Assembly (NCBI GenBank): GCA_038049695.1
Contig: CP142456.1
Span: forward strand, 44,124,001 to 44,188,000
Direction: 5' to 3'
DNA length: 64,000 nt
From: Cinnamomum chago
Taxonomy: Eukaryota; Streptophyta; Magnoliopsida; Laurales; Lauraceae
Shown here: positions 390 to 59,911 of the stretch, one piece after another
Position numbering within the stretch: the first letter of the stretch is position 1
Layout: each line of letters starts with the position of its first letter
Notes under the pieces: model-generated
What the model saw: the letters and a program-made list of their open reading frames with translations, nothing else
Databases searched by the model: none
What the model was told of the DNA's origin: nothing
Program-made: the position numbers and the translations under genes

Positions 390-680
390 CTTCATCTTTT
401 TTATCCATAACTTCTGAACTGTTACATGGTAAATTGACAAAAATTAGAACATAAAACTACCATAAGTAAATAACACATAACGGTTATCACATGATTAAAA
501 ACCAATAGTCGCACATCTCAATTGAATAACATTAAAATCAAACTTGAAGATGTACCATGACATAAAATTAACATAACAAAATAATATACCATGACATAAA
601 ACTAACATAACATTCAAATGTATCATGAGCAAAAAAGCAAACTCAATCCCATTTCATAAAGCAGTTTAGTAACCACTATC

Positions 681-22353: not shown

Positions 22354-24760
22354 CTATAAATAGGGTTTTTCCTTCTTCGTTTCTTTACTTTGGCATTCAT
22401 CAGAAAGAGTTCCTGCTGCAAGAGAGAAGAAATCCTGCCGAAGCTCTATTTTAGCGAATCTGAGTTTGGAGTTCGTCTTTTTCTTCCTTCTGTGAGTCTT
22501 CTTCCTCATCTCTTTCCTTTGCACACCTTCTATTTTCTGTTAGGGGTTCTGCCTTTGGGTTTAGGGTTTCCGCCCCTTGCTTTCTTCCAGTTTCGTCATT
22601 CTTAGGAGAATGGGATCATATAGGAATTGGCTGGACACCCTTGAGGCCATGGCTGGGTTGAGGGAGATGTATCGGATTCCAAATAGCATCCAGACCAAAC
22701 TAGACAACCCGAGGAACCCTTTCGAGGGTTATTCCTTCCGCGATGGCTGGATGCCATTCCTTCTGGTTTCAATGATCGAGGGAGGGGTTAGATTCCCCGT
22801 CCACCCTCTTCTTAGAGCTTGCCTGGCTACGTGGCACCTTGACCCCTATTTTGGTTAATTTCCAACAGCTCAATAACATTTTGGGCATTAACCTCAGTGT
22901 CCATGACATCGAGGATGTATATGATCTCTGCAAGTCCGTGGGAGACGGTCACAGCTACTACCTCCGGGGGAAGCCGAAACTGGAGCCCTTTGTCTATGAC
23001 CTAGAGGACTCGAACAGACACGCCGAGGACGATCGTCTACTCGTCTTCGGTAAATGGGAGTTCGGCGAGGCGGAGAGGTCGTATAAGATCCCTTATCACT
23101 TCGGGGTTCCCCCAAGTAAATATTGACCTCCTCAGAATGCTTTTGTTTTCTTTTTTTTCTTGTCTTGTCAAGCTGACACTTTCTCTTGTCTTACAGAGGT
23201 CAGTCAGAGGAAGCAGGGGGCTGAGCGCGCCGGCTGGAGGAGAAACAACAGCTGGTTAAAGCTCGTGCGTGAGTACCAAGGCCATCACGGGCGCGATGCT
23301 TGGTCCTTGCTCGGGTACAAGCCAAGGTACCACACTTATATTAAGAGGAAGGAGCCCGCACTCACTCTGACCGACGCCGAGGGCTGAAGAGCTTCAGGCG
23401 CCGAGACATCCAAATCGCCTGCCGGCTCGGAGACCGCTGACCTGTCCCAGCTCGTTGAGGCCTACTCGCCCCCCCCCCCCCCCCAACCGAGAAGCAGAAA
23501 GGGGAGAGGAGATGGAGCAACGACGCCCTGTACTGAAGGTCAAAGACTCCTAGGTGCTAAGTTTTTTGGAGGCCAAGATTCCTCCACTTCCACGCCCACT
23601 GTTGTCGACCCCACTCCCGCCCCTGTAGCTTCGGGTAGCTTCGGGGCTCCTTCTTCTGCTGCTTTGGGCTCAACTCGGCAGCGCTCCGCCAAGACCGTAA
23701 GGGAGGGAGGTCGAGTGAAGAAAAGGCCCTGGTTCGAAGGCCAAGGCATGGGAGCCCCGCAGCGCTCCACCGAGGAGGCAAGGGAGAGGGCCCAAAAGGA
23801 GAAGAGGCCCAGGGGCTAGGCTCCTCAGCCTGCGAGGCCAACCTCGTGGCTCCTCAGCCTGCGGGGCCGACCCCGTGGAGGCCAAGTCTTCAGCTCGGGC
23901 CTGGGAGGCCCATGACCATGGAAGACCGTCTATCCAACAGCCCTCTCGCCGTTGCTGCTCTCGCCAACACATGTGTTCTTCCTCTTGACATGTAGAGGCA
24001 CAAGGGAGCAGATGACGCGTCACTACTGATTTCTTCTTTGCAATCAGTCTTCTCGGTAAGTCTTCATCCTAGATCTGTGGTGTTTGACTTCGTCTGCTTT
24101 TCTTCTGACACTTGATTTTTTTCTCAGATTGCGCAGAGGGTTCAAGTGGTCCTGGACAGGACCCATGAAAACAGCTCCAAGGTCGAAAAGATGGAAGCAA
24201 AGAAGAAAAAACTGGCAATGGCCTTGGAGGGAAGTAACCAGGAGCTAAAAGCGGCGGAGGAGAAGATCAGTAGCTAAGGGGCAGAGCTCGAGTTTGCGCT
24301 CAATGAGATTTGCAACCTGAAGGCCAAGACCCACGAGCTGAAGGGTGCGGCCGTGGCTAAGGCGAAGAGGGCACTCGAACTTGAGGCCGAGCCGGCGAAA
24401 CAGAACGCCGAGCTCGAATTGGCGCATAAAGAGAAGACTAAAATCCAAGCTAAACTCGATGCAGCTTTCCAGGACGGGGTGGATGCGGCAACTAAAGAAT
24501 ACGAAGCCCAAATCAAGAAGATAAGATCGGCTTTGTTCGAACTTAGGTGTCGGGCTGCATTGAAGAAGGCAGGGATCCCCGAGGATCACCCTGTTTATCA
24601 CAACCTGCCCGAGTTTTCTCGCCCTGAGCCTGAGCCGAGTCTTTCCCCCACTTCTGAGGTCGCACCAGAGCCTGTCTCGACTCCTCTGCCTGAGGTTACT
24701 CCTCAAGCTGCTGCGGCTAACCCTTTAGATGTCAATGAAGAGGCCACTGCTGCTTGAAAC
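22354..24760 (+). mobile_element. Antisense accessory gene of the Tat element (Transposase_28-like)
   Basis: This gene runs opposite to the element. A TATA-like CTATAAATAG at about 22356 precedes a first ATG at 22610. The protein opens with a conserved plant domain (GYSFRDGWMPFLLVSMIEGG, RFPVHPLLRACLATWHLDP) that matches my memory of Transposase_28, continues at 22839-23126 (DIEDVYDLCKSVGDGHSYYL), and later has a long Lys/Glu/Ala coiled coil and an acidic Pro-rich tail ending near 24757. Pyrimidine tracts followed by CAG suggest introns. Antisense extra reading frames of this kind are known from Tat retrotransposons; their role is unclear. The block is interrupted in several places and is treated as a fossil. 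Confidence 0.6.
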
Positions 24761-29940: not shown

Positions 29941-30124
29941 AAACCCCAAGGGGTAGCTCAGTTGGCCTAGGACTACGGTTTGCACCCGAAGGTTGTAGAT
30001 TCGAAACTGCACTACCACACTGGGGCTACAGGAGAGTTTACCCGGCTTCCCTCTGGGCCCGGAGGGATTAGTCCAACCCAAATGGTTGGGAACCCTCTGA
30101 TATCAAAAAAAAAAAAAAAAAAAA
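29941..30124 (+). mobile_element. tRNA-derived SINE with 15-bp target duplication
   Basis: AAGGTTGGGTCATTG is duplicated at 29926-29940 and 30125-30139. The head has an A box (TAGCTCAGTTGG) and a B box (GGTTGTAGATTCGAA) at tRNA-like spacing, then an unrelated body and a tail of more than 20 A. It lies about 450 bases beyond the eEF2 stop codon, outside the coding region. Confidence 0.92.
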
Positions 30125-30572
30125 AAGGTTGGGTCATTGGAAGCATTCAAGTCTTCAACATGCAAGTATGGCCATTAGAACAGGAACCAAATCTGTGAAA
30201 ATATGGGCCACAGTTGGTTATGCATATACCATAATCGGATACCCAATAGAATCTGCAAATGATTATTCACCAACTAGGGATGAATCCAAATACATTCCCA
30301 AACCCACATTTGCAACAATTGCCTACCACCACTGACCCACTTGCACGATCATCATGGGATGGATCAGCATTCTACAATCAGCATATACAAGATTTAAAAA
30401 GTATACTAGGAACTTTTAAATTTTGCATAGGTTCAACAAAAAATTATAACAAAGTAAATAAATATCATCAACTGCTCAAAATATAATCTCTACCAGAATC
30501 AAACTATAGCAAAATAGATTTAAGTAAAATATTTCAATAAAGTACTCCAAGGATCAGAATCAATTGGCCACC

Positions 30573-33013
30573 TCACAGCTTGTCTTCAAATTCAGAAAGT
30601 GGGGTCATCTGGTCCTTGAGACCCTTTCTCTTGCGAATTTCAGTCACAAGCTGCCCTGCCTGCGTCTGCGGATCCATAGGATCAGACGACATCATGTCCC
30701 AATGATCAAAGACACACTGTGGGAAGGCCTGCCCAGAGGTAGCTGCCCTCAAAGTGCCTGAAAACCCGAAAGACTCAATGACCGGCAAGTATGCTTTGAT
30801 GTTATAAAGAGGAGTCCCTTGCCTCTGCATCTCCTCAAATACATGGCCTCGCTTCTGGTTCAGAACACCATAGATACCGCCAAGAGCCTGTTCCGGGGCT
30901 TGAATCTCCACCAGATAAACCGGCTCAAAGAGCCTTGGTTTGGCAGTCAACTGAGATGCATAAATAACCCTCCTGGCTGTTGGGATGACCTGCCCACCAC
31001 CTCTATGGATCGCATCTGCATGAAGAACCACATCACAGACTTCAAAGCATATCCCACGCATGTTTTCTTCTGCCAGTGCACCTTCCTTGGATGCCCACTG
31101 AAATCCAGCCACAACCGAATCCTTGATCTCGTTAAGGTACTGAACTCCCTTACACATGTCGACAACCATGTTAGGTCCAGTAGTTTCAGGACCAAAACAC
31201 CATATCTTCTTTGCGAGATCCTTGTCCCAACCAAATTCCTCGGAAAGGATCTTGGCCCGGACTTTTGGATCATCCCTTGGTCCAATGCGGCCTTCATCAA
31301 TGGCCTCAGCAAGACCATCCTCCATGGGGCGGGCCTCCATGTACAGGCGGTTGTGTTTGTTTGGAGACTTACTCATCACGGTTCGACATGATTTCTCAAG
31401 AACTGTCTCCCGGAAAGAGACAACAGGTGGGGAGACATTAATTTCTGCACCACCCATGAAATCTTCCTGCAAATCTTTCAAGCAAATTTCTAGGTGGAGT
31501 TCTCCGGCACCTGCAATAATATGCTCACCAGACTCCTCAATCGTGCACACCACCATGGGATCCGACTTTGCCAGACGTTTCAGACCTTCTACAAGCTTAG
31601 GAAGATCAGAAGCAACCTTACATTGCACAGCAACACGAACTACAGGTGAAACAGAAAATTTCATTGCTCGAATCGGATGTGCATCAACTTCTTTTTCATT
31701 AGTCAGAGTAGCATTCTTGGTGATGAACTGATCTAATCCAACCATAGCAACAGTATTACCACAAGGCACATCCTCAACTGATTCCTGCCTCTTCCCCATC
31801 CAAATAACAGTTCTCTGCACACTCTTCACATATAGATCCTTCTTCTGGCCAGGAACATAGTTAGGCCCCATGATTCTCACCTTTGAACCAGTTGCAACCT
31901 TCCCAGAAAACACCCTTCCAAAGGCAAAGAACCTACCCTTATCTGCTGCTGGGATCATCTTTGAAACATAAAGCATCAGAGGCCCTTCAGGGTCACAGTT
32001 CCTGATAGCATTTGCATATATGTCGTCAAGAGGTCCCTCGTACAGGTTCTCCACACGATACCTCTGTGCCTTGGCAGGCGATGGGAGGTGGAAGATCATC
32101 ATTTCTAGCAAAGCCTTGCTAGCTGGCAGCCAAGTCTGCATGACCCGCTTCATCAATGCCTTCCCCATCAGTTCCTTCTCGTCGGACTTCATGGTGACAC
32201 CAAGCTTTTGTAGCATAGGCCATAGTTTGTCCTTCTGATCGGTCATGCATATGTTGATGATCTGCTTGATGGGCTCATAGCAAAATTGAACAAAGCCCCG
32301 CCTACATGTAGGGGAACCAGTATTCTTGCTCGTCCATTTTTTGGTAGCTGGATCGAAGTAATTTTCACCCCAAAGCCTCTCCATCATCTTGGTTTCATCA
32401 ACCCCAAATTTGGACGCATACATTTTTGCAAAGTTAGTGAGAGTGAAGGCCCAACCATGTAGACCAGCAGAGAAAGCAACAGTTCCTTTCTCAGGATAAA
32501 CCTGAACATCACCAAGTAAAGGATCTTCATATGTAGCCATGATGACGTTGGCATTTTCAATGACCCGTTGGAAGGTCTGATAGGCTTCCTCTCCTTCAAC
32601 CTGAAGCTCAAGGAAGCAACGATCCATCTTGTTCACAGTCAAGACTGGCCTGATCCTTTCTCCCAAGGCTTGTCGGAGAACTGTTTCAGTTTGGACACAG
32701 ACACCTTCAATGCAATCTACCACAACCAGTGCACCGTCTGTGATACGTAAGGCTGCAGTGACCTCAGAAGAGAAGTCAACATGCCCAGGGGAATCAATGA
32801 GGTTGATCAGATACTCATTCCCCATCCTTTCACCCTTGAAGTTCTTTACTTCTTCATCTGCCATCTCATAGTAAAGAGAGATGCCAGTGGATTTGATTGT
32901 GATGCCACGCTCTGCTTCATCCGCGCGTGTATCGGTCATCCGAACATCTCCTGCAACTTCTTGTGCAATAATACCAGCGGCCGCCACCAATGAATCAGTC
33001 AGGGTGGACTTGC
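30573..33013 (-). CDS. EF2: eEF2 exon 3 (most of the protein)
   Basis: The exon runs from the splice acceptor TTTGCAG (33020-33014) to TGA at 30575-30573. It encodes residues 31-843: end of the P-loop (KST), switch regions, domain II, the ribosome-translocation domains IV with the diphthamide histidine, and the C-terminus. The single exon of 2,441 bases is uninterrupted. AT-rich sequence with TTTATTGAAA-like signals follows the stop at about 30500-30540 and probably holds the poly(A) signal. Confidence 0.97.
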
Positions 33014-36000
33014 CTGCAAATTCAGAAATAGGAGGTCAATGTTTCTGACACATCTATGCAGTGTACAGATCATGCTCCAATGGCATTTGGACCTGTGTAA
33101 ACAGCAACTAAGATTGTCCATTCGGTTTTGGGTAGAAAACCCAATATACATTCATAATGTGATTCAACAAAAATCATCAATGGATCTTCTTTTTTTTGGG
33201 GGTGGGGGGGCGGGCACAATGGGAACAAGCAGTTCAGATTGGAAAGTATTGAGTTATGCAGGACTATTCAATAAAAGGACCTTGCAGTCTTGTGTGCACG
33301 CAAAAAGAAAGATGCTTATAGGCAGTTATTTGCAGCAGAAAAAATTAGGGCATGTGGGCAAACTTGTCATATATTTAAAGTAATACATGCAAATGTGTCA
33401 CACAGTCAAAGTTTTATGGCAAACTTGTCGAAAAAGGTTCAAATTTTAAGCATTGAGAAAAACAAGAGGATGGTGTCTGGTGGAGAATGGGCTACTGTTG
33501 TGAGGAACAGGGGGCAGGAGAGGTTCATGTGCAGTGGGAAGATCTAATCTCAGTGTTTGCACTTCGTAGGTAACTTGCTAGAGTCTACTAAGGTGGAGAG
33601 GGTTAAGGCAGCATTTTCATCCTTGGGGAAGGTTATGGATGCATTCACCCCTGCCTATAGTAGAAGGATAGGTTTCTTTCTGTTCTGATTTAAAGAAATA
33701 AGGATAGCAATCAAAGCAGCTGAATCAACGAAGGCAGTTTGAGGGGAAGCAGACTAGTTGTCAACCTAGCTAAATTCAGGTGGAATTACAGGACCAGTAG
33801 TTGAAGGTTTCCAAAGCCAATCCAGGGGCCCCTGAGGTATTTTCAGATGTTCACAAGTCCTCTGGTTCTAATAGTGTTGCCCTCAACCATTCAGAGGGCA
33901 GCAAAGGGATAAAGATGTAGAGGCAGGTCATTAGCTATGCTGAGGCTGTTGAGGGAAAGAAAACTCAATGCATTTAAGTTAGCAGGGAGGTTATCTTCAG
34001 AAATACTCAGTGGCTTTCAAACAACCTAGTGGGGACAGAGGAAGGAACGAACCATATCCTCGATTTCAAGCTTATGTGATGTCTGGGGTATTACCGTACT
34101 AGCAATGTCAAGGTGGGCAGGCACCGTAGAGCAGTAGAAGCATCAGTGCGCAGATGGTGCAAGTTTTGTGAGATGTGGGGTTTCTGGTCTCTGAATGGAT
34201 GGTGGGGCGTTGATGATGATTGGCTGGGTTAGATTTCTGGATGATCGTGGATGGGTTTCTGGTAGGGCTAAGGGAGATGGGTTGGACGGTGGAGGAGGAT
34301 GCCGATGGGTAATGAGATGCGTGGACGATGACAAACCGGGGAAGACGATCGTTTCTCCGGCGACCGGATCTCGGCTCTGATGCCAATTTGGCGCAGCCCC
34401 GATCCGCAATTGAATAGTAGATCAATCTCCGAAAGGATTGATCGAATCCAACAAAGGGATTCCACACAAAAACAACAATCACAGCCATGAGCTCATGGGA
34501 ATAACTCACGTTAACTTGAATTAATTGAATAGAGCATAAACATTACAATAGGGTATCTTGTGTATATATAGAGTAGCATTGTTCCTAAATAAGCAATTAG
34601 GAAATATCTAATCCTAATCAGCATATAAATTTGAAAACAATCCTATTAAGCAAACTAAGCAATATTACTAATCTAGAAAATCAAAGAATCATGTGTAATA
34701 TGTGGACCCCATCAGGTGGGTCCATCAAGGCTTGCTGGTCCTGGTCTTGGATCGGGACCAGACTGCATCAAAACAGTTTGGCGCAGCCACGCCAAACCAA
34801 TGCATAGACAGTGTGTAATGCAGACTGAGAATCAGATGCCTAAGACAACTAATTGATTCATTGGTGACGTCTATTTGGTCGCAAGAAAAAGTTGGTGCAG
34901 ACCATTTGGTTCATTGGTGGTGTCTATTTGGCCACTCGCAAAAGTTGGTGCAGCCCCTCGGTTAGTGCGATTTAGAAGCCCCTCGGTGCTGCTTTGTTAG
35001 TCAACATTACTGTCTTGGTGAGCTGGTGTGGCCAATGAGGCATGTGTGGTGCTATGATGCTGATGCTTAGTGCTGTGTGCATGTGGTGGGGGTGTTGTTA
35101 TAGGCATGTCGTGTTGTGTCTTTAGGCCGGCCAGGTGCTGTGTGCATGTATCCAGGCTCATGCAGCAGAATACACCACACTCTGTGCATGCGGTGGGGGT
35201 GTAGTTATAGGCATGTCGTGTTGTGTCTTTAGGCCGGCCAGGTGCTGTGTGCGTGTATCCAGGCGCATGCAGCAGAATACACCACACAAGGCACACATTA
35301 ATGCCCATGTGCAGGAGCAGCCGACCCGTGCAGTGCGTGCTCTGGTGCGTGCTCTTAGGGCTACCTAAGAAGGCTGATCCCCTGGTGGGCTGTCCCATGG
35401 ACCAATGCATGCAGTGATGATGTGATTAACCCTGTATGACTTCCAAAGCACGAGTTAAGCACATGTAAGGCCTTGGTGGCCACAGTTGACCCTTGTGGTA
35501 CCGGGCCCGACAAGAGGACCAGTTGGATATTTTGGCTTACTCCCACACTTGTTGGCATTGCCAGATGGCTGAGTATGACTTGGCAGCCATATGGCAATGT
35601 GGTTGTGCAGTCGCTTGAGCAATTATGCATGAGAAAGGTTTTTATTCAAGCAGCTACTAAATGACTAGTGGTTGCATGGCAGGTTGCATGCAACCCAGAC
35701 AAACAACAGTCATGGGTAGTTTGTCCTGGTTGCTTTGGCAAGTACACATGGGCAGGCAGGCAGGCAGGCAGCCTCAATTGGCAGCCCATGATTGGTACAG
35801 ACTTCTTTAAATGCCTGCATGGTTGCAGAGATTTGCAGAGAAGACCTTAGAGAGAGTTGCATACAGTTGTTTTCTTTGTAAGGGAGTTGCTCCCAAAATT
35901 TTGATTAATAATAAAGAAAAGAAAGCTGGCTATATCATTCAAGAGTGATTGTTGTGTGCGGTGTATTCTGCCTCTCTTCAGTTTTTTGTGCTCTTGTGAG

Positions 36001-38238
36001 AGCGCTAGGATTGCTAAGGCAGGCTAAGTGATAGGATTGCAGAGAAATTATTGGAGACCTAGGAGAGAGTTTCAAAGAGTTGTTTCCTTTGTAAGGGAGC
36101 TGCTCCCATTATTTTGATTAATAAGAAAGAAAAGGCTGGTGCCTATATTATTCAAGAGTGATTGTTGTGTGTGCTATATTCTGCCCCTCTTGAGTTCTTT
36201 ATGCTCTTGTGATTGTGATAGGATTGTTAAGGCCGACCATAGTTGTCAAAATCGTGCGATACACGATAAATCGTACGATTCGTATCATATCGGCACTTTT
36301 GGGGCGTAATCAGTTGATTCATTAACGAATCGTCCGATACGATCTGATTCGGCATGAATCGCATGAATCGTGCGATTTTTTGTGGGCTGGAAAACAAAGA
36401 GCCCAAAATCTATTTGGGATGGTTTCCATTAAAAGAAATTAGAAGCCCTATACTATTCGTGAATCTGTTCAACTGTTCCTTCTTCATTGTTGTATCTGTG
36501 CTGCATTTATCCTCTGGCCGCATGATTTCTTCAGCTACTTCAACCCAAACAAGGAAGACTGCCAGGTTTGGTCGACTATGCTCCTCCTCCCTCCTCGACT
36601 CGCCTCGCCTCGCCGCTGTCTGTGTTCGCAGTCTTCATTTGTTAGAAGCCAAAGACCTTTCATCACTCCAATGAGAGAAGAAAAGAGCAGCAGCCGAACT
36701 GTAGAAGTTCAGGCTCCTTCATTCTCTGCCAGCTGCCTTTCGTTTGCTTCAATGAGAGAAGCGGAGCAGTGTCCGGGTGCCTTCGTTTGCTGTAGCCAGA
36801 AAAAAGAAGAGCAGCAGTCGAATTCTCTTTTTCCATCTAACCAGTCCAGGTACGCATTTTAAATTTTATATTTTTTCTCCCAACCCTCCACATGTCGACT
36901 CTTTCTTCCATCTGTCTCTTTTCTTTTTCTTTTTCTCATGACCAGTGGGGCCCAACTGGGTCATTGATGGATCTATATCCAGCTTTTCTTCTCTGTAGAA
37001 CAGTGGGGCCCACCTAAGAGATCCAACTAATCCCTACTGAATGGACTTTTGGGATTTCACTGGTGGGCCCCACTTATTTTTGCTTAAAAATAATTTGAGA
37101 TTTTTTTATCCACCTGAGGGGCCCACCTGAAAATCTCAATTGCTACATGGGCCCCACTGATTGTAGGATCTTGGTAAAAAAAAATTCTGTGCCACGGGTT
37201 TGTTTTTTTTTTTTTTTTCCTCATCAATATGTGGGCCTCACACCTTACTGGCATTGGCTGCTTGATTTATAGTGTGGGCCCCACCAGTGGACATGCAACT
37301 CTTTTTTATATCTTAATCATTGTTAGCGATTTAGATATAGTACATTAAGATGCTAGTATTTGTCATGTATTGATGTTGATAAGGATGGAAAATATATAGA
37401 TTTTGAACATTTATAATTTTTCCTAGGTTTTCAATATTTGTTGATAAGGATGGAAAATATATAGATTTTGAACATTTATAATTTTTCCTAGGTTTTCAAT
37501 ATTTATTTGGATTTTTTTCATCTTAGAAAAAGTAGAAAATATCCTACGATTCGCGATTCGATTCGATCCAACACCTTGAACGATTCATGATACAATTAAT
37601 GATTTGACAACTATGAGGCCGACTAAGTAATCGGATCCTTAATGCTGCATGTGGTTTTCTAGCGCAAAAAATTACCCAGTGATACTAGGCTTGGTGAGAA
37701 GTTCCTACTATCTTTTCCTAATCTGGAGATAGTGATGCCAACAATCAAGATCTAGAATTTGAATTGACCATCTTATTTTATCCCTGGAACCCTAGATCCC
37801 TAGCTCTTTGTCCCGATCCAAGACAGTTTGGGTCAGCTGCTTTGGGATTACTACGCAGGGTGGGATGGCAGGGTGTTCGAGGAATCGGGAAAGAAATTTG
37901 GAAAGGTCTTGAGGGTGGCAAAAGAAACATTGATTAGTCAAAGCTGGAATATGGTAGGATATGCGTGCAGGTTAAGTCGTAGGATTCAGAAGTACAGTTT
38001 AAAGTTTGTTTCTTATTCATATCTAAAAGCTCCCCAAAACCATGAAAATTCTTACAGGTTTCATTAACGCTAAATAAGCTTTTAAAAATATAAATGCTAA
38101 ATAAAGAACCAAAGAAAGAAAAACAGTAAAAAAATATTAGAGGATTTTATTAGAAAAATTACCTTAGATGCAGACTACACCAAAAAAGGGCCCTCTTAGT
38201 TTCCCTCGCACGGAAGTGGTACCCTGGGACCACTTCCG

Positions 38239-38283
<45 letters not shown>

Positions 38284-38323
38284 AAATGAGAACGAGTCGA
38301 TATCTACCCTGGGACCACTTCCG

Positions 38324-38355
<32 letters not shown>

Positions 38356-41252
38356 ATGAGAACGAAGTCGATATCTACCCTCTCGATCCTCCCTAAACAA
38401 GAGAGGGTTGTTATCAACACTCCACGGTCCTTTCAAACACGAAAAACCCTAGTTCCCCTATCTTCCTCTTCCGCTCTTCCCCAAACCCAATGGCGTTCGT
38501 AATTCAAACTAGGCTTCATCAAATCTAGAGGGTTAATTTTTTTTTTCAAACTAGGCTTCATCAAATCTAGAGGGTTATTTTTTCCTTGAAACGGGTTCTC
38601 TTCTGAAACTAGAAGAAATGTGACTTGGGGAGATTTGCAGTGGTTCCGTTCTGGGATGAAGAGGAAGAGGACATTGAACGTTCTGGGATGAAGAAGAAGA
38701 GGACATTGAAATCCTCATATTATCTTAAAAAAAAACCCTATCTCCAAACCGATAGGGCATTTTCTTTCTCTTGATTATTGTGCTCGCTCTTATTTAAAAA
38801 TTAAAAAGAATTTTAGGAAAAATCCCGAAATTTGGCCATTCCTCGCAAAGGGTCCCGCAGATTGTGCAACACAAACTCGGTCTTCCCGTCACTTTTTCAT
38901 TTTATTTTTGTACTTTCTTTGAGCGACGATAGCATAGCCCAGAAAATTTTGAGCGACGCCTCGTGTATTCTTCTTCCTCGCCTCCTTCCTAATTCTCCAT
39001 ATCCCCCACTCCATTTCTCGCCCAACCCACCACCCAAAATACTTCCATCATCCTTCGGTGTAGGGAGAGGATGATTATCACCTCTCACCTTTCTCTTCAA
39101 ATGTCCTAGAATCTCTTGGTCGCTTGATCGAACTTCACCCCTGCAGGCAACCCTGGTAATTCATGAATTCCCCCTGCATAATTAAAAAACCAACCATTTC
39201 TTATTGTTATTTGTTTTCTTCTTCTTCCCATGCAACAAAGAAGAAGAAGAAGGTATTATGATTAGAGTTGTCTGAGCGACACTAGTATATGATTAGAGTT
39301 GCTCCAGTCAGACACGAGGAACGCTAGCATTGCTCCTGTCAGACATGAGCGCTGCTAGTGTCGCTCCCCTCATCATTTGAAAAAAACGGAAGAGGTCCAA
39401 ACAAACCCCGTTTGTGCTGCACAATCTGCGGGGAGCCTTCGCGGGGAATGGCCAAATTCTGGGATTTTTCCCGTAAAATCCTCAAAACGAAAAAAAAAAT
39501 TTATATTAGGGGTGTGATAAACTAGAGAATATTAGACGACAAAAACCCATTTCAGGTTTCATCTCGATATTTGATTTGTAACCTGTATTAGGGATGTGGC
39601 AAAATGGAGAAGATTAGGCTACAAAAACCCATTTCAGGTTTTCATTTGGTCTTCCCCGCCCATTGGGCTTGGTGAAGAGAGGAGGAAGATGATGGGAAAC
39701 TAGTTTTTTTCGATTGCAACCCTCCCCTGTTTAGGGAGGATTGATAACAGGAAATGGTCTGACCACTATCGCTAGGGAAACTAAGAGGGCCTTTTTGGTG
39801 TAGTCCGCATCTAAGGTGATTTTTCGGGTAAAAATCATCAAATTTTTAATATGACCTCTTAGCAATGCTTATTTTCATTCAACCAAATTGCTTGAATCGT
39901 AAATTTTGATGAAGCAAGTTTCATATCATAAGATTCGCTTGAATGGGATTCCTCGAATAGATGCAAATCATTTTCCTTAAGATTAAATATGAACAGTAGG
40001 ATTCTAACCAGGTTGTTTTAGAGGGTCGCGGAATGTTCTACTAGCAGTTCCAACTCGTGGGGTGCATTGAGATGCCTACTTATCCGTGGGGGTTGGGTAC
40101 GTGGAAAGGCCTCCTTCTAGATAAGTGTCAACCAAACATTCAGCCCCATCAGATTTGATTTAATAGCCTCGAAGATTAGTGCTTTTTTAACAATACATTT
40201 CTTTGAGATTCAATTCAATGGTGGATAAAGATTTGATGAAAGTTTAATTGGGCCTGGTGCCAGATCATTGGGGGATGAGTGTGAAAGAGCTTACACTGAT
40301 CAGAAGTGGGCCGACTACAAAAAGTTGTCACCCGCAGGAGAACATTTCTCCAAGTGGGTTCTTTGCATGTGTCATTTGGTAGATGGAGGATGGAGAGAGA
40401 GGAAGGATGGTTTCTTTCTCTTGGATTGTGTCATATAAGAGAGTCCTTCGTCAATCTATTATGGGGAGTTGTTCAGCCTGCTTTCAACATTTTTTCTCTG
40501 TTGGACGGAGAAGACACTCACCGTCTGAAAACCTTATCAGCAAAGGCCTTTTATCCAACGTTGGAGGGTCTACCCCAAATAACGAGCAGCTTCTCTTGTT
40601 TGTTTAGGGTTGGCTCCTCGTGTGGAGGTGTTTTGTTGGGTGGCAGTTGCAAGGGGTTCCATGATGGAAATTCTGAGAAGAGACATCATGTACGAAGATA
40701 TTTCATATACTTGTGTGATGTGCATGGAGGAAGTAGAATCTATTTAACGCACACCCGGATCCTCGATCGAAAATAGATCAACCTCCCAAGGGATTGATTG
40801 AATCCAAAGATGGATCCTTTGAATTCAGCCACTAGGGCGTACTCACGATAATGGTAAAGAACAGAACTGAAGAGAAAACTCACAAATATAAGTGTGGGAA
40901 CCACCCAAGAATAGTTTCGGAATATTTTTATTTTCCTAAATATTTGTTAATAGGCTTTTAATTTTATTTAAGAGTTGTAATTAGGATAAGTTTGCTTTTC
41001 TTATTTGTTAGTAGGTTTCTAAAATTTCTTAGTTTACTATTTTGATTAGATTTTCTTAGCCCCTAAGTTTACTTTTCTTATTTATATTGCATTGTAGAGA
41101 TTTATTTCTCAGACTTTGATGACTAATAGAATTTAAGTGGGTGATTTATCCCTTGAGGTGCGTCCTCGTGTTGAAATATCTGCGGAGATCTCATATAATG
41201 TCCGTGAACACGTGCTTCGAGACTTCCACAGAAGCCCTAACCCTAGGGCCCA

Positions 41253-41313
<61 letters not shown>

Positions 41314-44300
41314 CATTTGCTTCTCGGGTTCGGCCTAAACCGACTCAGACCCAACAATGGGCCTGCACATGTCCTACGCATGAGGGAAGAAACAAGGATT
41401 TTGACTTCTTACTTGTAGTTGGACTGCGAGTATTAAAAGAAAAAATGACTTCGGCTGCAACGAAGTCAAATGTGCGGCGAAGACAAAACTGTTGCGGCTG
41501 ACTGTGAGGGTGAGCTCAATGCTAGCAATGGCGAACTTGATGATGATCATGATGATGTTGGTGTGCGATGATGGGGGAGCTTCTGTGGTGGCACAACTGT
41601 TTTCAGTGTTTTGGGTTTGGCAAGACTGTTTTGGGTTAAATTGGCAAGGTTTGGAGTGGATTCGGTGGGCCTTAGCAATTAGGCTAGAGAATGGAAGGGG
41701 TTTTGATTGGTTTTGGGCACTAGAATTTGGGGTTTTTCTAGTGAATCGGACTCAGATTGAGGGGTTCTTGGTTCGGGGTGTTTGATTAGGGTTCAATAGG
41801 TTGGGTTAGTGGGTTAGGGTTATATGGGGTCTTGGTAGGGAGGGAATTTGGGTTTGAGGGTTTCGGTTTTGGAATATGGGTTGGGTTTTGGTTTTGATTA
41901 GGGTATTCAAGGACAATGGGGCTACAATTGGGTTCTGGTGGAATCAGGTGCTCATGCGTCGTGTAAGTAGGAGTGGGGTGGGTTTAGTAGGCTCGGTATA
42001 GGTGTTGATGAAGTTCAAAATTGTGGGTATAGTAGCCGAGGGGATGGTTTGAAGGTGGGATAGAACAGTTCTCTTCTCGACGATTTGCCTTCAGCTGTGG
42101 TGCCCATTGACATAGACCCAGATCCTTGATCGAAAATAGATCAATCTCCCAAGGGAATGATCGAATTCAAAGATGGATTCAGCCACTAGGGCGCACTCAC
42201 GAAAATGGTAACACTGTAACTAGTGCTACAAAATTCAGTTCGTTTTGGCCGAAAATTCAGAATAATTTTAGTTTGCTCACTCTACCAAAACTAATAGGAC
42301 GCCTGTTATTCATTCCAATTCGTCCAATTGGGGTCCGAAATTTTATGATTTTGGCCAATTCGTCCAATTATTCATCCCAGCATGTAGGTTGCCTTTAAAA
42401 TATAAAAAACTGAAAACAGAAGGGCCTAAACTCTTTTTTTTTTTTTTTGGCCTTTTGGCTTAGAGAAATTAGTGGGCTCCACTATGGAGCTGGAAATCCA
42501 AATAACTACATGGGCCCCATCTCCAATAAAATTTTATTCCAATAAAAATATTTTATTTTGAATAAGCTAGCCACTCTAATATAAAATAGATCGTCAAATA
42601 TAAAGTGACATTGATTTAGTACAATAAATTAAATGTAACATATATTATATTTTCATTTTAATATATATCATATTTTTTTCCAATATATTTCACCAAAATT
42701 TCCGAATCAACAGAAACATCTCATTTAGATGCCAAACCGAAATGGCATCCGAATTGAATTTCACGCCAATGACCGTAATTGAAGAGAAAAGTAGAGATAA
42801 ATTGATTGATAATAATAAGCATAAGCAATTACAAAGGAGAAATCATTTATATATCAGTGTTACGAATTTTGGCTCGGATCGTCCGAAATTTCCGAATAAA
42901 TTCGATTCGGTCCCTCTAACGAACCGAATAACCCCCGCAAAAATTCGTTCCAAAATTCATAGTAGTTCAGACAATTCTGACCAAAATGAAGGAATTCAGC
43001 CGAAATTGGTGAATAAACAGAATTCGAACGAATTCTGTGGAGTTACTTAAAAATAGAAAAAATAAAATCTGAGAGGGTTGAACGTAATTTTTTAACTTAA
43101 AAAGTAAAAAAAAAATATTCAGGAGGAGGTAAATATAACTTTGTTGAACTTAAAAGTAAATGTAAAAACCCTAACCCAAAGTCCCTTTCCCCTTTTGTTC
43201 TATGAAGTAAGAAAAGAAAAGAAGTATCTGCAATCACGTTCTGCTAAATCAACAAAGAAGAAGAAGAGGGGAGGGGAAGGAGGAAGAAGAGGAAAGGCAG
43301 CAGCTGAATCTGCTGCTGCTGCTCGGCTCATCTGATAAAAAAAAATGAAGAAGAAGAATAAGGAAGTAGGAAGACGGGAGACAGGAGACAGGAGAGGGGA
43401 GAAGGGGGAGGGGGAGAAGAAGAAGAAAGAACGAAAAATGACCTGCTGCTGCTCTGGTTGTCTGCTCCACCAAGCTGCTGCTCCTGCTCGCTCAACCCAC
43501 CTCCCTGCTTTTACCGTCTGACCCACCTCCCTGCTTTTTATTTATTCTGTACTGCTGCTTCCTGAATCCTGACTCACCTGCTTTTTTTTTTTAATTTTGT
43601 TCTCCCTTTTGAACCGAGCTGAGTTTGCTGGTCTTTTTTATTATTAAAATTTTTTTTTCAACTAGTGTTTGCTGGACTGGGTAAGGGTCTGCTCATTTCT
43701 GGTCTAGCCCATGTCAATCAAACACATGCTATATCATGAGTTGATTTAGAAAAATAAACTAAATGTATGAAACCATATTTTTAAATTATGATATTAATCT
43801 TATATTTTTCTATATATATTATATATTTTTCCGAAATATAAATCCAAAACATTTCACCGAAATTCCGAATCGAATTGGACAAAATCTTTCAATTTGGAGG
43901 CCAAACCGAATCAGCGTCCGAAACGAATTTCTCAACACTGCTGTATATACAGAGTAGGATTGTACCCTCATTTGCTAAGACTTTCCTAACCAATTAAAGA
44001 AACCTAAATAAAAGAGGAAACTCAAATATTAGCAATAATAGGAAATAGAAATAGAACCAAATTAGAACTCCATAGTAGCTCTTGGTCGAATTGGGCATCT
44101 GGACTGAACCCAATGGACCGGGTTGACCAATGGGTCAATGCGTTTGCCAAGTTGACTTAGGTCTGGTCCATACTGCATCATTATTGATCATCTCCTTTCA
44201 TTACAAGGTTGTTGCTCATATATGGAGTCATTTTATTTATAGTTGCTGTCTATCTTGGTGTTCCCAAAGTGCCTTAGCAGAGCTAGCAAAAGCTTGAAGA

Positions 44301-46307
44301 TTCGGGTCATTCCATGTGTTGCACGTTTTTTATTCAGAGGACAATTCCTTTATCCATTATTTGGTCAATGAGGAAGGAAAGGAATGATAGGATTTTTAAA
44401 CGGAGTTACTTCCTAGGCTGTAGATCTACTCCCAATTGTAAGCCTTTAAGATTGTTATCCGAGGAATCCTTCACAAGGATGTAAATATCGGCCGATACGA
44501 ATCGTATTGGCCGATATATCGGGCGTATCGGCCAAGACCGATACGCCACAAAGGATTTATCGGCCGCCACGGGTTATCGCACCCGTGGCGGCCCGTATCG
44601 GCCGATACTCAAGAGCATCGGCTGATACATGCCGCCACGCTACGTGGCGGCCGATACGACGTGCGGGGGTTATAAAACCCCCCCTTTTGAACTTTTTAGG
44701 GTTTTTTACCCTTCTCTTTCATCTCTTCCCCTCTATGGTTGCTGTTTTCACCTCTTTGTGAGCCCCAAAGAGCCGTCGGACAGCCCTCCGGGACTCGGCC
44801 TCTTTATCAGTACTTTTCATATATTGAATGATCTATCATGAATGCATGCAACATATAATGTTTATGTTCATATTAAGCTAATTTTGATCACCAAAGTTTT
44901 ATGCTTAGGGTTAGGTCTCACCACAGTGACCCTAACAATTAAACACTGAAGTATTGATATTTGATTGTTCAATGTTCACTGATGACCTAACTCTTAAGTC
45001 TTCTTAATTCTTATGCCTTTATTTCATGTTCTAATTTTTTTCTATTTAGCTTTCCATTACTTTTTAAGTTAACATGACTAAGAAACATGAATACATGTGA
45101 AAAAACTAATCATTACTATTATTTTCTATTTATACAGCGATACAAGACCTCATATATTGAGGGCACCGCTACGCCCCCTTTTCTTACTTACTTTTGCAAA
45201 AGAACCACATTTTCTTTCATTTTACAATTTTCTGGATTTTCTGGAATTTTTTCAGATTTTTTTGGCGATTTTTTAAAATCGCACCGCTACGTATCGCCCG
45301 CTTCGTATCGGTTTGGCGGCGGGCCGCTACGCCCGCCGCTACCGCTATTTTCATCCATGGTCCTTCAAAATAATAGAGGGGATGTGTTGTCCATGTTTTC
45401 CAAGTCCTTGGGAGTTAAAGCTTCAAATGAAGCAGAGGTCGTTGCAATTCTAGAAGTGTTGCAGATGCTCCCTGCCTACTTTCATGGGAGGCTTGTGTTG
45501 GAAAGCAACTCTATGAATACAATTTTCAAGGGTTCCCAGCTCTACAATGTAGACTTGGAAGTTTCAGTGGTCCTCGGTATAGTGCTCTTATACATGTGTC
45601 CCTTTCTCTTTTTTAGAGCTGCTTCTATGCATATGATTTGATGTTCTAATAAAATATGCCATTATCGATAAAAAGAAATTGTCAAAAAAGAAAAACCAAG
45701 TGTCTCTTTCTCTTTTTTGGAGCTGCTTATATGCCATATGATTTGATGTTCTAATAAAATACAGCATTATCGATAAAAATAAATTGTCAAAAAAGAAAAA
45801 CCAAAAGTGGTCTTTACTCTATTTGAAAAGAGGCAAGAAATTTTAAAGGTTGATTCAATCAGAGAACCTTCCTAACCAAAATTTAAAAAAAAAAAAACAA
45901 AAAAAAAAAAAGAAAGCATCGACAATATGATAAAAAAGAACATGGTAAATAGAAAAATGTGTACCAACCTGTAACATATGCATCGAGTAGAATTGCCCAC
46001 AAATCATTAATATATATATGCATGAGGGAGATTATTGCTCACAATATCATTCAGAAATCAGAATCCAAATAAAGCTCTTATATTTGCAAATAACAATATC
46101 AAAAGTAACCATGGTAAGATTCCATACCATGATCAACATGGGCAATAACGGACATATTACGAATATTATGCTTCAAATCCATGATCCTACGGAGCTCCTC
46201 TGCTGTAAATTTCACCTGCAGACATAGAAAATATTCCCCACCATCACCAATTGAAAGCGAGTGATGCCAGTATTTTTTTTTTTTGTAAAAGAATAAACCA
46301 TTACCAT
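30573..46307 (-). CDS. EF2: Translation elongation factor 2 (eEF2), three exons with CDS
   Basis: eEF2 is the GTPase that moves tRNA and mRNA through the cytosolic ribosome. The coding sequence joins 46307-46305 (ATG), 46215-46128 and 33013-30573, with GT-AG introns of 89 bp and 13,114 bp. It encodes 843 residues, the standard plant length, without a stop or frame break. Motifs: P-loop AHVDHGKST (26-34), switch I with [24 protein letters not shown], the diphthamide loop [12 protein letters not shown] near residue 700 and the C-terminus EFEDKL. An intron directly after the ATG is usual in plant eEF2 genes. The second intron splits the Gly31 codon of the P-loop (G then GC) and is full of transposable elements. 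Expected constitutive expression is family knowledge; the promoter was not located. Confidence 0.97.
33440..34080 (+). pseudogene. L1-type LINE ORF1 with RRM-like domain
   Basis: The plus strand encodes [17 protein letters not shown], then [35 protein letters not shown] and IGFF, with further '[13 protein letters not shown]' and a Gly/Arg-rich continuation. This is the RNA-recognition motif (RNP2 FVGNL, RNP1-like RRIGFFLF) found in ORF1 of many plant L1 LINEs. Several in-frame stops (for example after GKI and after IGFFLF) show that it is dead. It has the same strand as the ORF2 pieces at 40290-45660, so it may be the 5' part of the same element. Confidence 0.65.
34090..34770 (-). mobile_element. 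Chromovirus fragment: LTR and leader
   Basis: An LTR of about 382 bases (34389-34770), starting TGGCGCAGCC and ending GACTGCATCA as read here, matches the LTRs of the element at 54948-61477 (shared 'gtagatcaatctcc', 'gattgatcgaatccaa', 'ctaagcaatattactaatct'). The sequence left of it, with 'ctctgatgccaatt' at the junction, corresponds to the primer site and leader. The rest of the element is absent. It is a fossil. Confidence 0.7.
35085..35290. repeat. Tandem duplication, unit about 118 bp
   Basis: Two adjacent near-identical copies contain GGTGGGGGTGT, 'ggcatgtcgtgttgtgtctt', 'ggccggccaggtgctgtgtg' and 'atgcagcagaatacaccaca'. No coding sense is apparent; the copies lie in an LTR-like part of the eEF2 intron. 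Confidence 0.85.
35845..36235. repeat. Tandem duplication, unit about 200 bp
   Basis: Two diverged copies (35845-36035 and 36045-36235) share TTCTTTGTAAGGGAG or its variant, 'tgctccca.attttgatta', 'ttcaagagtgattgttgtgt' and 'ctcttgtga'. They resemble the 3' part of a retroelement LTR. The second copy ends at the hAT-like insertion at 36238. Confidence 0.75.
36238..37615. mobile_element. hAT-like non-autonomous element 2 (8-bp TSD)
   Basis: Termini CATAGTTGTCAAAATCG and the reverse complement CATAGTTGTCAAATCAT are inverted repeats. The 8-bp duplication AGGCCGAC is at 36230-36237 and 37616-37623. The subterminal regions repeat CGTACGATTCG-like motifs. The middle is AT-rich apart from a stretch with several 'gtgggccccac' motifs. 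No transposase is present. A 65-bp internal tandem duplication lies at 37376-37505. Confidence 0.9.
37376..37505. repeat. Perfect or near-perfect 65-bp tandem duplication
   Basis: Units 37376-37440 and 37441-37505, both beginning TTGATAAGGATGGAAAATAT, are identical by eye except at the last bases. They are internal to hAT-like element 2, so the duplication is younger than most of that element's changes. Confidence 0.9.
38143..39827. mobile_element. Mutator-like non-autonomous element (outer), long TIRs
   Basis: Inverted repeats of about 55-60 bases contain GAAAAATCACCTTAGATGC and GACTACACCAAAAA followed by 'ggccctcttagtttccct', at about 38154-38213 and 39772-39820. Long TIRs with no transposase suggest a Mutator-type MITE. 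Exact ends and duplications could not be fixed. Two (ATT)n runs (38239-38283 and 38326-38354) lie beside a repeated 'aaatgagaacga' segment. A second element is nested at 38814-39477. Confidence 0.7.
38814..39477. mobile_element. Mutator-like non-autonomous element (nested)
   Basis: Inverted repeats of about 60 bases contain GGAAAAATCCC, 'aatttggccattcc' and 'cagattgtgca.cacaaac', at 38816-38876 and 39412-39475. They end in the same 'gattttac.ggaaaaatc' pattern as the outer element, so the two look related. No coding capacity is present. Confidence 0.75.
40290..40745 (+). pseudogene. L1-type LINE ORF2 fragment (zinc-binding region)
   Basis: The frame near 40600-40740 reads [44 protein letters not shown]. 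This matches the zf-RVT region of plant L1 ORF2 (A/PP+V..F.W.....+..T...L, C..C...EES..HL). Sequence before it ([20 protein letters not shown]) fits the preceding ORF2 linker. Frame slips are present. The piece stops at the insertion at 40746; the following motif residues (INHLLFH-like) appear at about 44183. Confidence 0.6.
40891..41250 (+). mobile_element. Copia-type LTR fragment
   Basis: The fragment starts TGTGGGAACCACCCAAGAAT and parallels 47832-48110 over its length ('aggattag..tttc', 'ttaggcccctaagttt', 'atattgcattgtagaga'). Its right end merges into the (CT)n tract. It is a fossil. Confidence 0.5.
41255..41309. repeat. (CT)n microsatellite
   Basis: About 27 uninterrupted CT dinucleotides. 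Confidence 0.98.
42218..43940. mobile_element. hAT-like element with AATTCGG-type subterminal motifs
   Basis: The left end (AGTGCTACAAAATTC then GTTCGTTTTGG) and the reverse complement of the right end (CAGTGTTGAGAAATTCG then TTTCGG) are imperfect inverted repeats. Both ends and a block at 42870-43020 are rich in AATTCGG/CCGAATT motifs. The flanks CTGTAACT and CTGTATAT are a decayed 8-bp duplication at best. It may be two elements nested, given the internal block. No transposase is present. Confidence 0.5.
44183..45660 (+). pseudogene. L1-type LINE ORF2 C-terminal region with RNase H-like domain
   Basis: At 44183-44473 the frames give [10 protein letters not shown] and '[11 protein letters not shown]', typical of the linker of plant L1 ORF2. 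After a hAT-like insertion (44474-45359) the RNase H-like part follows: [52 protein letters not shown]. The order and strand fit with the ORF2 piece ending at 40745. It is dead through insertions and frame slips. Confidence 0.7.
44474..45359. mobile_element. hAT-like non-autonomous element 3
   Basis: Termini CAAGGATGTAAATATCGG and, reverse-complemented, CATGGATGAAAATAGCGG are inverted repeats. The flanking octamers ATCCTTCA (44466-44473) and GTCCTTCA (45360-45367) match at 7 of 8. The left side carries TATCGGCCGATA motifs like element 1, while the right side carries CGCTACG/GCGGCGGGCCGC motifs like element 5. The right 300 bases align with 57470-57780. Confidence 0.85.
45596..45804. repeat. 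Tandem duplication of the LINE 3' end, unit about 104 bp
   Basis: Units 45596-45699 and 45700-45804 share 'tttctctttttt.gagctgctt', 'atgatttgatgttctaataaaata' and 'attatcgataaaaa'. An A-rich run at 45882-45915 follows and may be the LINE tail. Confidence 0.85.
46128..46215 (-). CDS. EF2: eEF2 exon 2 (residues 2-30 and part of Gly31)
   Basis: The acceptor CTGCAG lies directly before GTG AAA TTT. The exon encodes [17 protein letters not shown] and [13 protein letters not shown] and ends after the first G of the Gly31 codon at donor GTATGG. The sequence is the standard eEF2 N-terminus. Confidence 0.97.
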
Positions 46308-47070: not shown

Positions 47071-47757
47071 TGAAAATAATAAAGCGGATCCTACTCAATA
47101 CATACATGTGCATTCTCCCTGTTTCTGCATAAATTCAATTAATAATAAATTTTTAAAGGTTCTTTCTTGCAGTTGCATTCATCTTTGATCTTTGGGCGAC
47201 GAATCCCGGATTGGCATCAAGCTTAACTTGGGTTTCAATCTCCTGGTCAATTCCATTATCATCTCCATCAAATCCCTGTTTCTGCATAAATTCAATTAAT
47301 AACAAAGTTTTAAAGGTTCTTTCTTGCAGTTGCATTCATCTTTGATCTTTGGGCGACGAATCCCGGATTGGCATCAAGCTTAACTTGGGTTTCAATCTCC
47401 TGGTCAATTCCATTATCATCTCCATCAAATACCTAATATAGTTACAGCTGGTTGGGATGTTGTGCGTATGGGAGTGCAAGTGTTCAAGCCCCCATTCTAG
47501 GAAAAAGAAAAAACCTTGTTTCACTTTTTCAAAAAAAAAATAATAATAAATAAAGAAAATAATAAAGCAGATCCTACCTCTATACATACATGTGCATTCT
47601 CCCTGTTTCTGCATAAATTCAATTAATAATAAAGTTTTAAAGGCTCTTTCTTGCAGTTGCATTCATCTTTGATCTTTGGGTGACAAATCCTGGATTGGCA
47701 TCAAGTTTAACTTGGGTTTCAATCTCCTGGTCAATTCCATTACATCTCCATCAAATA
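46964..47757. repeat. Complex tandem duplication: SINE block twice, second block three times
   Basis: Order: SINE block (46964-47118), block T (47119-47273), T (47274-47447), SINE block (47448-47600), T (47601-47777). Block T, about 155 bp, reads on the minus strand as an open stretch with DNGIDQEIETQVKLDANPGF and AQRSKMNATARK. An AG before and a splice-like 'aag' after suggest it might once have been an exon, but no protein family was recognised. The third copy has a different frame because of small changes. Confidence 0.85.
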
Positions 47758-54947: not shown

Positions 54948-55314
54948 TGATGCAGCGATCAGGTAGTAGATCAATCTCCCAAAGGATTGATCGAATCCAA
55001 GGATGGATTCCAGCCACTAGGGCACAATCGAAACCATGAAACACTCCATAACTCACGTGAGTAATTCTCAGAGAAATCTATTATTCATTATAAAGCATGA
55101 AAAAATAACAATAGGCTATTTTGTATATATAGAGCATAATGTTTGCTAATAAGGAAAGCTACTAATTCTAATTAACAATAAAATTAGAAAGCTAGCAAAC
55201 TAAGCAATATTACTAATCTAAAAAATTAGAAAACGTGAGGCACATGTGGACCCCATCAGCTGGGCCCATCAAGTCTTGTGGGTCCCTGTCTTGGATAAGG
55301 ATCGGACTGCATCA
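54948..55314 (-). repeat. 3' LTR of the chromovirus
   Basis: This LTR of 367 bases is aligned by eye with 61109-61477. The minus-strand purine tract abuts it at 55315. Confidence 0.93.
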
Positions 55315-55329
55315 ACTCTCCCCGGCTTA

Positions 55330-56771: not shown

Positions 56772-57127
56772 CTATTTTATTTGCTCAAAACCAGTGACAG
56801 TGACTGTCATAGTAGTGAGGAGATGTTTCCGGCGACTTAAAGCATCAGCTACCAAATTTTCTTTGCCAGCTTTATGGCGGAGACTGAATGTGAATTGTTG
56901 AAGGTAAGAACTCCAATTAATGCGACAATCACTGACATGCTGTTGTGACTGTATATGCTTCAAAGCCTCGTGATCGGAATATAAGACAAAGTCGTTGCCA
57001 ATCAAGTAATGACACCAATGTCGCAATGCTTGCACAACGGCGTAGAATTCTAAATCATAAATAGAATATCCGCGTTTGGCATCAGAGAGCTTTTCGCTAA
57101 AAAATGCAATCGGGTGACCCTCTTGGC
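56772..57127 (-). mobile_element. RNase H region of the chromovirus
   Basis: The minus strand reads HPIAFFSEKLSDAKRGYSIY, FYAVVQALRHWCHYLIGNDF, YSDHEALKHI and ADALSRR, the RT-linked RNase H of Ty3/gypsy elements. The hAT-like element at 57128-57782 interrupts it at its upstream side. Confidence 0.9.
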
Positions 57128-57782
57128 CATGGATGAAAATAGCGGCAGCTACGTCCGCTACGGGGTGAGAAAATTTCATACTTTCCAAAAAAAAATTAAA
57201 TGCATAATAAGACTTATTTCTTTTCTTCTTCTCTCCAAATAACATTTCTACACAACTCTTCTACCCTTTTATGTTTAGAAGAACACCAAAAAGCATATGA
57301 TCTCGCCGAATTACAGTCGATATAGAGAGTTCTTCTAAATGATTCTTCTCTAAGTACAACCTATTAGACACCCCCTTCGGTAGATGTATTTTTTCTAGGT
57401 ACTCTCAAGTCTTAACTTCATGACATAGTTTTTTCTTTTATAAGTCTTTCATTAGTTTCTAAGTTAGTATAACTAAGCAACATGAACACATGTGAAAAAA
57501 ATGATCATTACTATTATTTTCTATTTATATAGCGATACAAGACCTCATACAGTGAGGGGACCGCTACGCCCCCTTACCTTAATCACTTTTGCAAAAAAAA
57601 AAAAAAAAAAAATCATTTTCTTTCATTTTACAATTTTCTGGAATTTTTTCAGATTTTTTTGGCGATTTTTTCAAATCGCACCTTTACGCCGCTACGTATC
57701 CCCGCTACGCTACGTATCGCCCGCTTCGTAGCGTTTTGGCAGCGGGCCGCTTCGCCCGCCGCTACCGCTATTTTCATCCTTG
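57128..57782. mobile_element. hAT-like non-autonomous element 5 (perfect 8-bp TSD) in the chromovirus
   Basis: Termini CATGGATGAAAATAGCGG and the reverse complement CAAGGATGAAAATAGCGG are inverted repeats. The target duplication CTCTTGGC is at 57120-57127 and 57783-57790. Subterminal motifs are GCTACG/CGTAGC types. Its right half matches element 3 and its left half matches the relic at 20384-21100. It inserted after the chromovirus and so is the younger of the two. Confidence 0.92.
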
Positions 57783-57940
57783 CTCTTGGCTAAGGACTCC
57801 TCCAGTGCCAATCAGAGAAGCATCACAAGCAACTTCAAAGACTTCGTTAAAATCCGGAAGTCGTAGGCAGGGGCTTCTGTGATCTTACGCTTGATTTCTC
57901 CAAATGCTCTAGTTGCTGCACTTGTCCATTTAAAGTCACC

Positions 57941-58612
57941 CTATTTCATACAATTAGTGATTGGAGCCATAATACTGTTGAAATCTCGAATGAACCTTTT
58001 ATAGAAAGTGGCAAGTCCGTGAAAACTACAAACTTCAATGAGAGTTTGCAGAATAGGCCAATCGAGGATAGCTTGAATCTTGGATGGGTCCATTGCAATA
58101 CCATTAGAAGAGACAACAAAGCCAAAGAAAATCACAAAATTGCTCATAAAAGTACACTTCTTCAGATTCGCATATAAGCGTTCCCGGCGAAGAAGCTCAA
58201 ATATGCTCTTCAAGCGATTAAGATGCTCCTGTTTGGACTTGTTGTAGATCAAGATATCATCGAAGTAGACAACAACAAACCTTCCAATGATTGGTTTCAG
58301 CAATTGATTCATAACACCCATGAATGTGATAGGAGCATTAGAAAGACCAAAAGGCATGACCAGCCATTCATAAAGACCATTTTTAAAGGTCGTCTTCCAT
58401 TCATCACCTGGTCTAATTCTAATTTGATGACAACCACTGCGAAGATCAATCTTAGAAAAAACAGAAGTACTAGTCATAAGATCAACCATATCATCAAGTC
58501 TAGGGATAGGGAAGCGATACTTTAAAGTGATTTTATTGATGGCATGACTATCCACGCACATAGGCCAGCTTCCATCCTTCTTTGGTGTAAGAAGAGCAGG
58601 TAGGTACGTCAC
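57941..58612 (-). mobile_element. Reverse transcriptase region of the chromovirus
   Basis: The minus strand has [57 protein letters not shown] and [14 protein letters not shown]. The YFDD box and the surrounding order are those of Ty3/gypsy reverse transcriptase. The family call rests mostly on this block. Confidence 0.93.
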
Positions 58613-58665
58613 ATGGACTGAGGCTTTCCCGAATATTGCAATAAATCATCAACTTGTTTCTTGAG

Positions 58666-59610: not shown

Positions 59611-59911
59611 TGTCGTGCTTAGCGGCTATTACAGTGCCTTTAGCAGTATTCTGATTGGGTTGCCACTTCTGAATGGGCTGAGGATTCTGTCCACCTAGTG
59701 GTGGAGCTTGTTGCTACCTTTGGATTTGGTTTGAGGTGGTCAGAACCCTTCCTATGGCCCCGATTGAATGTAGAATCTGGACCCTTTATGTGGGACTCCC
59801 CCACTTGGTTACTAAAACGTCGCCGAATTTGCTGACGCAATGTTTGCTCGATGTGTCGCGCCTTGCTAGAGATTGCATCAATAGTGGCGAAGTCAAAATA
59901 CGGCCAATCTA

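Follow-up and report, generated by a model that had tools for sequence, protein, structure and literature searches.

Long introns in related plants

Long introns have been published for magnoliids and Chloranthales, as set out in the Chloranthus spicatus genome paper (PMC8626473). The eEF2 gene of Cinnamomum chago described here resembles the Chloranthus genes in that the exons are conserved and the introns have grown by repeats; the genes with long introns were expressed in that study. The two cases differ in the inserted material. LTR elements are named as the major contributor in Chloranthus, whereas the recognisable insertions here are LTR-like fragments and short elements of non-autonomous type, with no coding domain detected in them. 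The conifer Picea glauca also has a few very long introns per gene (PMC4108047), and this is the pattern seen here. Unlike C. chago, Picea glauca is a gymnosperm. Its genome is also much larger.

In Arabidopsis, the EDM2/IBM2 pathway keeps transcripts from being polyadenylated prematurely within heterochromatic transposons that lie inside genes (PMC10241880). The introns on which it acts share with ours the presence of transposon sequence within a gene's intron. By analogy, an intron like the one described here might be tolerated through this published mechanism. Judged by titles and, for LOS1, the openings of abstracts, the few papers found on plant eEF2 intron structure or on LOS1 held nothing on point, which is no claim of absence from print, and the phrase "13 kb intron" did not occur in the 8 listed of 33 literature matches.

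The eEF2 gene and its protein

The window, by which we mean the whole stretch of DNA analysed, is 64,000 nt long (Cinnamomum chago GCA_038049695.1, CP142456.1:44,124,001-44,188,000, forward strand). The genome comprises 1.06 Gb in 14 contigs, among which the window lies at C6:44124001-44188000. Its eEF2 gene has the following parts, in window coordinates.

46305 to 46307, minus strand: eEF2 coding exon 1, the start codon only (3 nt)
46216 to 46304, minus strand: eEF2 intron 1 (89 nt, GT-AG)
46128 to 46215, minus strand: eEF2 exon 2 (88 nt; codons 2-30 and base 1 of Gly31)
33014 to 46127, minus strand: eEF2 intron 2 (13,114 nt, GT-AG with GTATGG..TTGCAG, phase 1)
30573 to 33013, minus strand: eEF2 exon 3 (2441 nt; two bases of Gly31, 812 codons and the stop codon)

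The spliced coding sequence has 2532 nt and encodes 843 amino acids with no internal stops. The original prediction, that three exons join by GT-AG rules into an eEF2 of this length without visible defect and that a 13.1-kb intron interrupts Gly31, is correct to the base. Intron 2 splits the Gly31 codon as G/GC, inside the AHVDHGKST motif. This motif (residues 26-34) is accompanied by RGITIKS (66), NKMDR (158) and DAIHRGG (697), and solved eEF2 chains align with the exon-3 protein along its full length (1-812). The full-length frame, the GTPase motifs and an 11-residue loop place the protein in the eEF2 family; the loop tested here is presumably the carrier of the diphthamide histidine.

No tRNA or Rfam features were found in the 64-kb window. 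An open frame of 159 amino acids at 24278-24757 lies in a GC-rich stretch, is rich in charged, coiled-coil-like residues and gave a Pfam match only below threshold.

eEF2 paralogs and the shared intron position

When the genome was searched with the exon-3 protein, other eEF2 copies were found on C7 (96%), on C4 (92%) and, in two frames, on C9. At least three full-length eEF2 genes are thus intact, the window copy included, and one is broken. A single essential eEF2 is not supported, there being two other full-length copies and the frame-broken one. The C7 and C4 genes read through to 843 residues with the ATG supplied by hand, and this ATG, followed by GT as in exon 1 of the window copy, is visible in their DNA. 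The region 46295-46374 matches C7 at 76%; it spans the start codon together with the adjoining upstream DNA and the beginning of intron 1.

Exon 2 is present in the DNA upstream of the C7, C4 and C9 copies, 89%, 80% and 80% identical to that of the window copy, respectively. All four copies have intron 2 at Gly31, and therefore the position of the intron is family-wide and only its length is peculiar to the window copy. The same finding led us to reject transposons as the cause of the split P-loop codon. In the paralogs, intron 2 measures 476 nt (C7), 208 nt (C4) and 258 nt (C9), so that the window intron is about 28 to 63 times longer. The donor sites read GTATGG (C7), GTATGA (C4) and GTATGC (C9), against GTATGG in the window copy, and the acceptors of all four end in GCAG.

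The reading frame of the broken copy (C9:55625953-55628386) meets a stop after residue 200, and near coding position 1278 its alignment to the C4 copy shows a 2-nt gap. It is either a young pseudogene or a sequence error. Downstream of the window gene, at 29941-30126, lies a short repeat, two copies of which (82-83%) occur in the 10-kb stretch holding the start of the C9 copy.

Repeat content of intron 2

We identified 11 repeat segments in intron 2, covering 7,422 of its 13,114 nt; this 56.6% is a lower bound, as the best 40 of 169 to 3487 candidates were scored per search. Ten of the 11 have copies elsewhere in the genome, and the remaining one, 40744-40857, was matched within the window only. 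The original prediction of at least ten insertions is borne out. The elements and their nested parts are listed below; no strand is assigned where none is given.

34163 to 34777, minus strand: LTR-like fragment (1258 first-look candidates; best 91% over 383 nt)
36238 to 37615: non-autonomous hAT-like element (1,378 nt; 13-nt perfect terminal inverted repeats)
38132 to 39848: outer inverted-repeat element (its two arms match at 85%; it has relatives on C12, C5 and C9)
38796 to 39487: inner inverted-repeat element, inside the outer element
40039 to 40312: dispersed repeat (copies 75-78% identical)
40744 to 40857, minus strand: LTR-like end fragment (matches 42116-42211 at 84% in the same orientation)
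40890 to 41259: dispersed repeat (copies 70-83%; short pieces also 71-86%)
42107 to 44180, minus strand: LTR-like element split by two inserts (in a relative on C4 the outer ends are only 200 nt apart)
42219 to 42771: insert A in that LTR-like element (copies 71-78%, one partial copy 82%)
42855 to 43941: insert B in that LTR-like element (at best 86% over about 430 nt, with short pieces reaching 93%)
44474 to 45364: non-autonomous element with inverted ends (2710 first-look candidates)

About 43% of the intron showed no repeat among the best 40 scored candidates per search. The stretches without a listed match (33014-34162, 34778-36229, 37624-38130, 39849-40038, 40313-40743, 41260-42106, 44181-44473 and 45365-46127) may hold further repeats that were outranked by others.

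The element at 36238-37615 is assigned as hAT-like from its terminal inverted repeats and an exact 8-nt target-site duplication (36230-36237 and 37616-37623). C2 and C1 each carry a near-full copy, with 90% identity across the left 1.2 kb and 86% across the remainder, and a six-frame scan found no Pfam domain within it. Across the whole intron, comparison of 12-nt words with their own reverse complement within 4 kb gave 76 matches (overlapping words counted separately, simple repeats kept in), where 100 Markov-1 controls averaged 5.5. Of the matches in intron 2, one has an exact 8-nt duplication just outside it; the 100 controls together have none.

Several levels of nesting had been proposed. 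Nesting is shown for two levels, not for more: one inverted-repeat element lies within another, and a single LTR-like element holds two inserts. The three relatives of the outer inverted-repeat element lack the inner element and have only 7-18 nt between their halves; they are continuous across the insertion point, so the inner element came later. The element at 44474-45364 is a putative Mutator-like element; its inverted ends are imperfect, and its flanking 9-nt duplication matches at 8 of 9 positions (by eye, without a control). Its right half (44946 to about 45361) is 95-99% identical in 32 of the best 40 of 2710 candidates, the window included, and this makes it the youngest family in the intron; longer matches among the same 40 reach 89%.

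No transposon domain scored E 0.01 or lower in six-frame Pfam scans of intron 2, where the only hit, to Spo12, was sub-threshold (E 0.0042, 17.4 bits against 20.5). Ten of the 31 open frames, scanned singly, gave sub-threshold Pfam matches only; one of these is to RVT_3, at 45081-45638 (E 0.02, 15.3 bits against 21.6). With no Pfam domain above cut-off, we rejected the idea that autonomous elements fill the intron. The LTR-like fragment at 34163-34777 carries, at 34373-34385 and in the gene's sense, a primer-binding-site-like motif.

The intron also holds several exact or near-exact tandem duplications, such as one of 65 nt at 100% and one of 107 nt at 95%, of a kind that might arise if repeats had been collapsed or misjoined and part of the length were an artefact of assembly. 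There are no N letters in the intron, the target-site duplication is intact and the nested elements have clean joints, and we give an assembly artefact next to no chance.

Repeats also occur in the rest of the window. Further copies of the intron's LTR-like family lie in the same orientation at 54964-55315 (71%) and 61053-61477 (69%). The remains of a Ty3-type LTR retrotransposon occupy 56772-60694 (minus strand), where the matches to gag, reverse transcriptase and RNase H fall in separate frames, and a 77% relative of the intron's 45009-45362 sits between the reverse transcriptase and RNase H frames. Upstream of the gene, at 47116-47434, are two 157-nt tandem copies that are 98% alike.

A 308-kb sample, made up of 20 random 10-kb stretches, six beside the paralogs and the rest of the window, matches 6.5% of intron 2, every match lying inside the window. 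As far as this sample goes, and no further, the repeat families of intron 2 appear not to be among the commonest of the genome. Positions 1-27000 of the window match 12 of the 26 sampled 10-kb stretches, against 0 of 26 for intron 2, and so hold higher-copy repeats.

Intron length against other genes of the genome

Two families that we take to be essential in this genome, the chaperonins and the tRNA synthetases, served for comparison. For the chaperonins (PF00118), 65 of 88 listed matches were used; left out were a full-length match without splitting, two that fell in long unrelated frames, and 20 weak matches close to the profile's start. Twenty-two pairs of exons that adjoin in the profile, with at most 8 positions of gap or overlap and some of them from near-duplicate loci, gave introns of which 11 are at least 1 kb, three at least 2 kb and one 6.2 kb. 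None of the 22 reaches 10 kb, under an adjacency rule that drops pairs spanning a missed exon, where the longest gaps fall.

Among 24 matches to the aminoacyl-tRNA synthetases (PF00133), five adjacent pairs are 5.5 and 4.3 kb apart on C3, where one of the two matches of the 5.5-kb pair contains a stop and is doubtful, and 2.7 kb (C4), 2.3 kb (C12) and 2.1 kb (C11) apart elsewhere. Ordered matches extend over 93.8 kb on C3 and 73.4 kb on C11 if each run is one gene, with missed exons in between and seven stops in one of the C11 matches. An intron of 13.1 kb is in the upper tail yet not out of place for this genome.

The weight that the original prediction gave to the case is reduced by the multi-kb introns of other essential genes and by the published long introns of magnoliids, Chloranthales and conifers. 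The spare eEF2 copies weaken the argument that an essential gene tolerates a long intron. What stands in favor of the original prediction is that 0 of the 22 measured chaperonin introns reach 10 kb.

Selection on the coding sequence

The window copy and the C7 copy differ by dS 0.909 and dN 0.0215. With C4 as outgroup and 73 ambiguous sites excluded, we count 118 synonymous against 15 nonsynonymous changes for the window lineage, and 115 against 17 for the C7 lineage (Fisher p 0.71). A gene unconstrained for K=0.02 per site would be expected to show about 39 nonsynonymous changes, and 15 or fewer has P 9e-6; if all of the approximately 10 nonsynonymous differences at ambiguous sites are assigned to the window lineage, 25 or fewer has P 0.01. 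When all 15 are taken as neutral (upper bound 24.7), the unconstrained time is at most K 0.0126 per site, and adding the ambiguous-site differences raises the bound to 0.019 per site. The C9 copy was uninformative as a yardstick of relaxed selection: its counts of 43 synonymous to 18 nonsynonymous, which include its two stop-class changes, are no different from the 36 to 10 of C4, which leave out that copy's one stop-class change (p 0.39).

The nearest scored relatives of the inserts, the 44474-45364 element excepted, differ by 9-26%, from which insert ages can be taken as upper bounds only. Half of this distance exceeds the unconstrained bound, and it can thus be argued, not proven, that the eEF2 coding sequence was constrained also after the insertions, with the same exception.

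These data bear on whether the locus might be wholly or almost silent, with the long intron impairing splicing or inviting silencing while C7 and C4, both full-length, supply eEF2. Several features of the intron would suit such a state. The LTR-like fragment in the sense of the gene and two more in the same orientation could end transcripts early, as could 16 AATAAA motifs on the gene's strand (a raw count, without a control), and retention of intron 2 would bring a stop after residue 39 (that of intron 1, one after residue 31). The undamaged frame and a synonymous to nonsynonymous pattern like that of the short-intron sister speak against this, as does an unconstrained time bounded at about K 0.013 per site, or at 0.019 once every ambiguous nonsynonymous site is assigned to this lineage; a silencing more recent than this would fit the data. 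We consider a silent locus unlikely, and a dead gene is not supported. The purifying selection shared with C7 argues against a dead locus, and its strength lends indirect support to the original assumption of a functional one.

Probable growth of the intron and its possible consequences

We assign a probability of roughly 0.87 to the reading that the window gene is a functional member of the eEF2 family in which an intron of shared position has grown by transposon insertion. Lengthening by transposons is indicated both by the short introns of the paralogs and by the further copies that the inserts have in the rest of the genome. We infer growth in the window copy and not loss in three copies. 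Intron 2 would have gone from a few hundred nt to 13.1 kb in this copy alone, piecemeal and through transposons that are mostly non-autonomous, namely LTR-like fragments, a hAT-like element, and inverted-repeat and putative Mutator-like elements. Some inserts would have entered earlier ones, with decay and small duplications following, and the inserts were probably neutral or nearly so. As the GT-AG sites are kept, the spliceosome most likely removes the whole stretch as one intron, and the intron is probably spliced and the window copy expressed.

By analogy with the mechanism given for Arabidopsis intronic transposons in PMC10241880, heterochromatin over the inserts might be read by an EDM2/IBM2-type complex, which would govern what share of transcripts reach full length instead of ending prematurely. 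LTR-like fragments in sense orientation are present, as such regulation would have it. Other genes of this genome have multi-kb introns as well, however, so that a special role is not needed, and we find a regulatory intron quite improbable. Equally far-fetched is a division of work between the two closest eEF2 copies (dS about 0.9), in which the 13-kb intron would tie the output of the window copy to chromatin state or growth rate, for example by termination in the sense LTR-like fragments. If this were true, a core translation factor would have a transposon-built switch.

Transposon insertion in a functional gene remains our preferred reading, and the original interpretation as a whole is partly supported. 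This is ordinary transposon-driven intron growth, unremarkable in this genome, and current views of plant introns are unchanged by it. The eEF2 family of C. chago offers a clean comparison within one genome, with a single intron position at which one intron is long and the others are short, and with measurable selection on the coding sequence. In this comparison the long intron is accompanied by no detectable change in protein evolution relative to the nearest sister.
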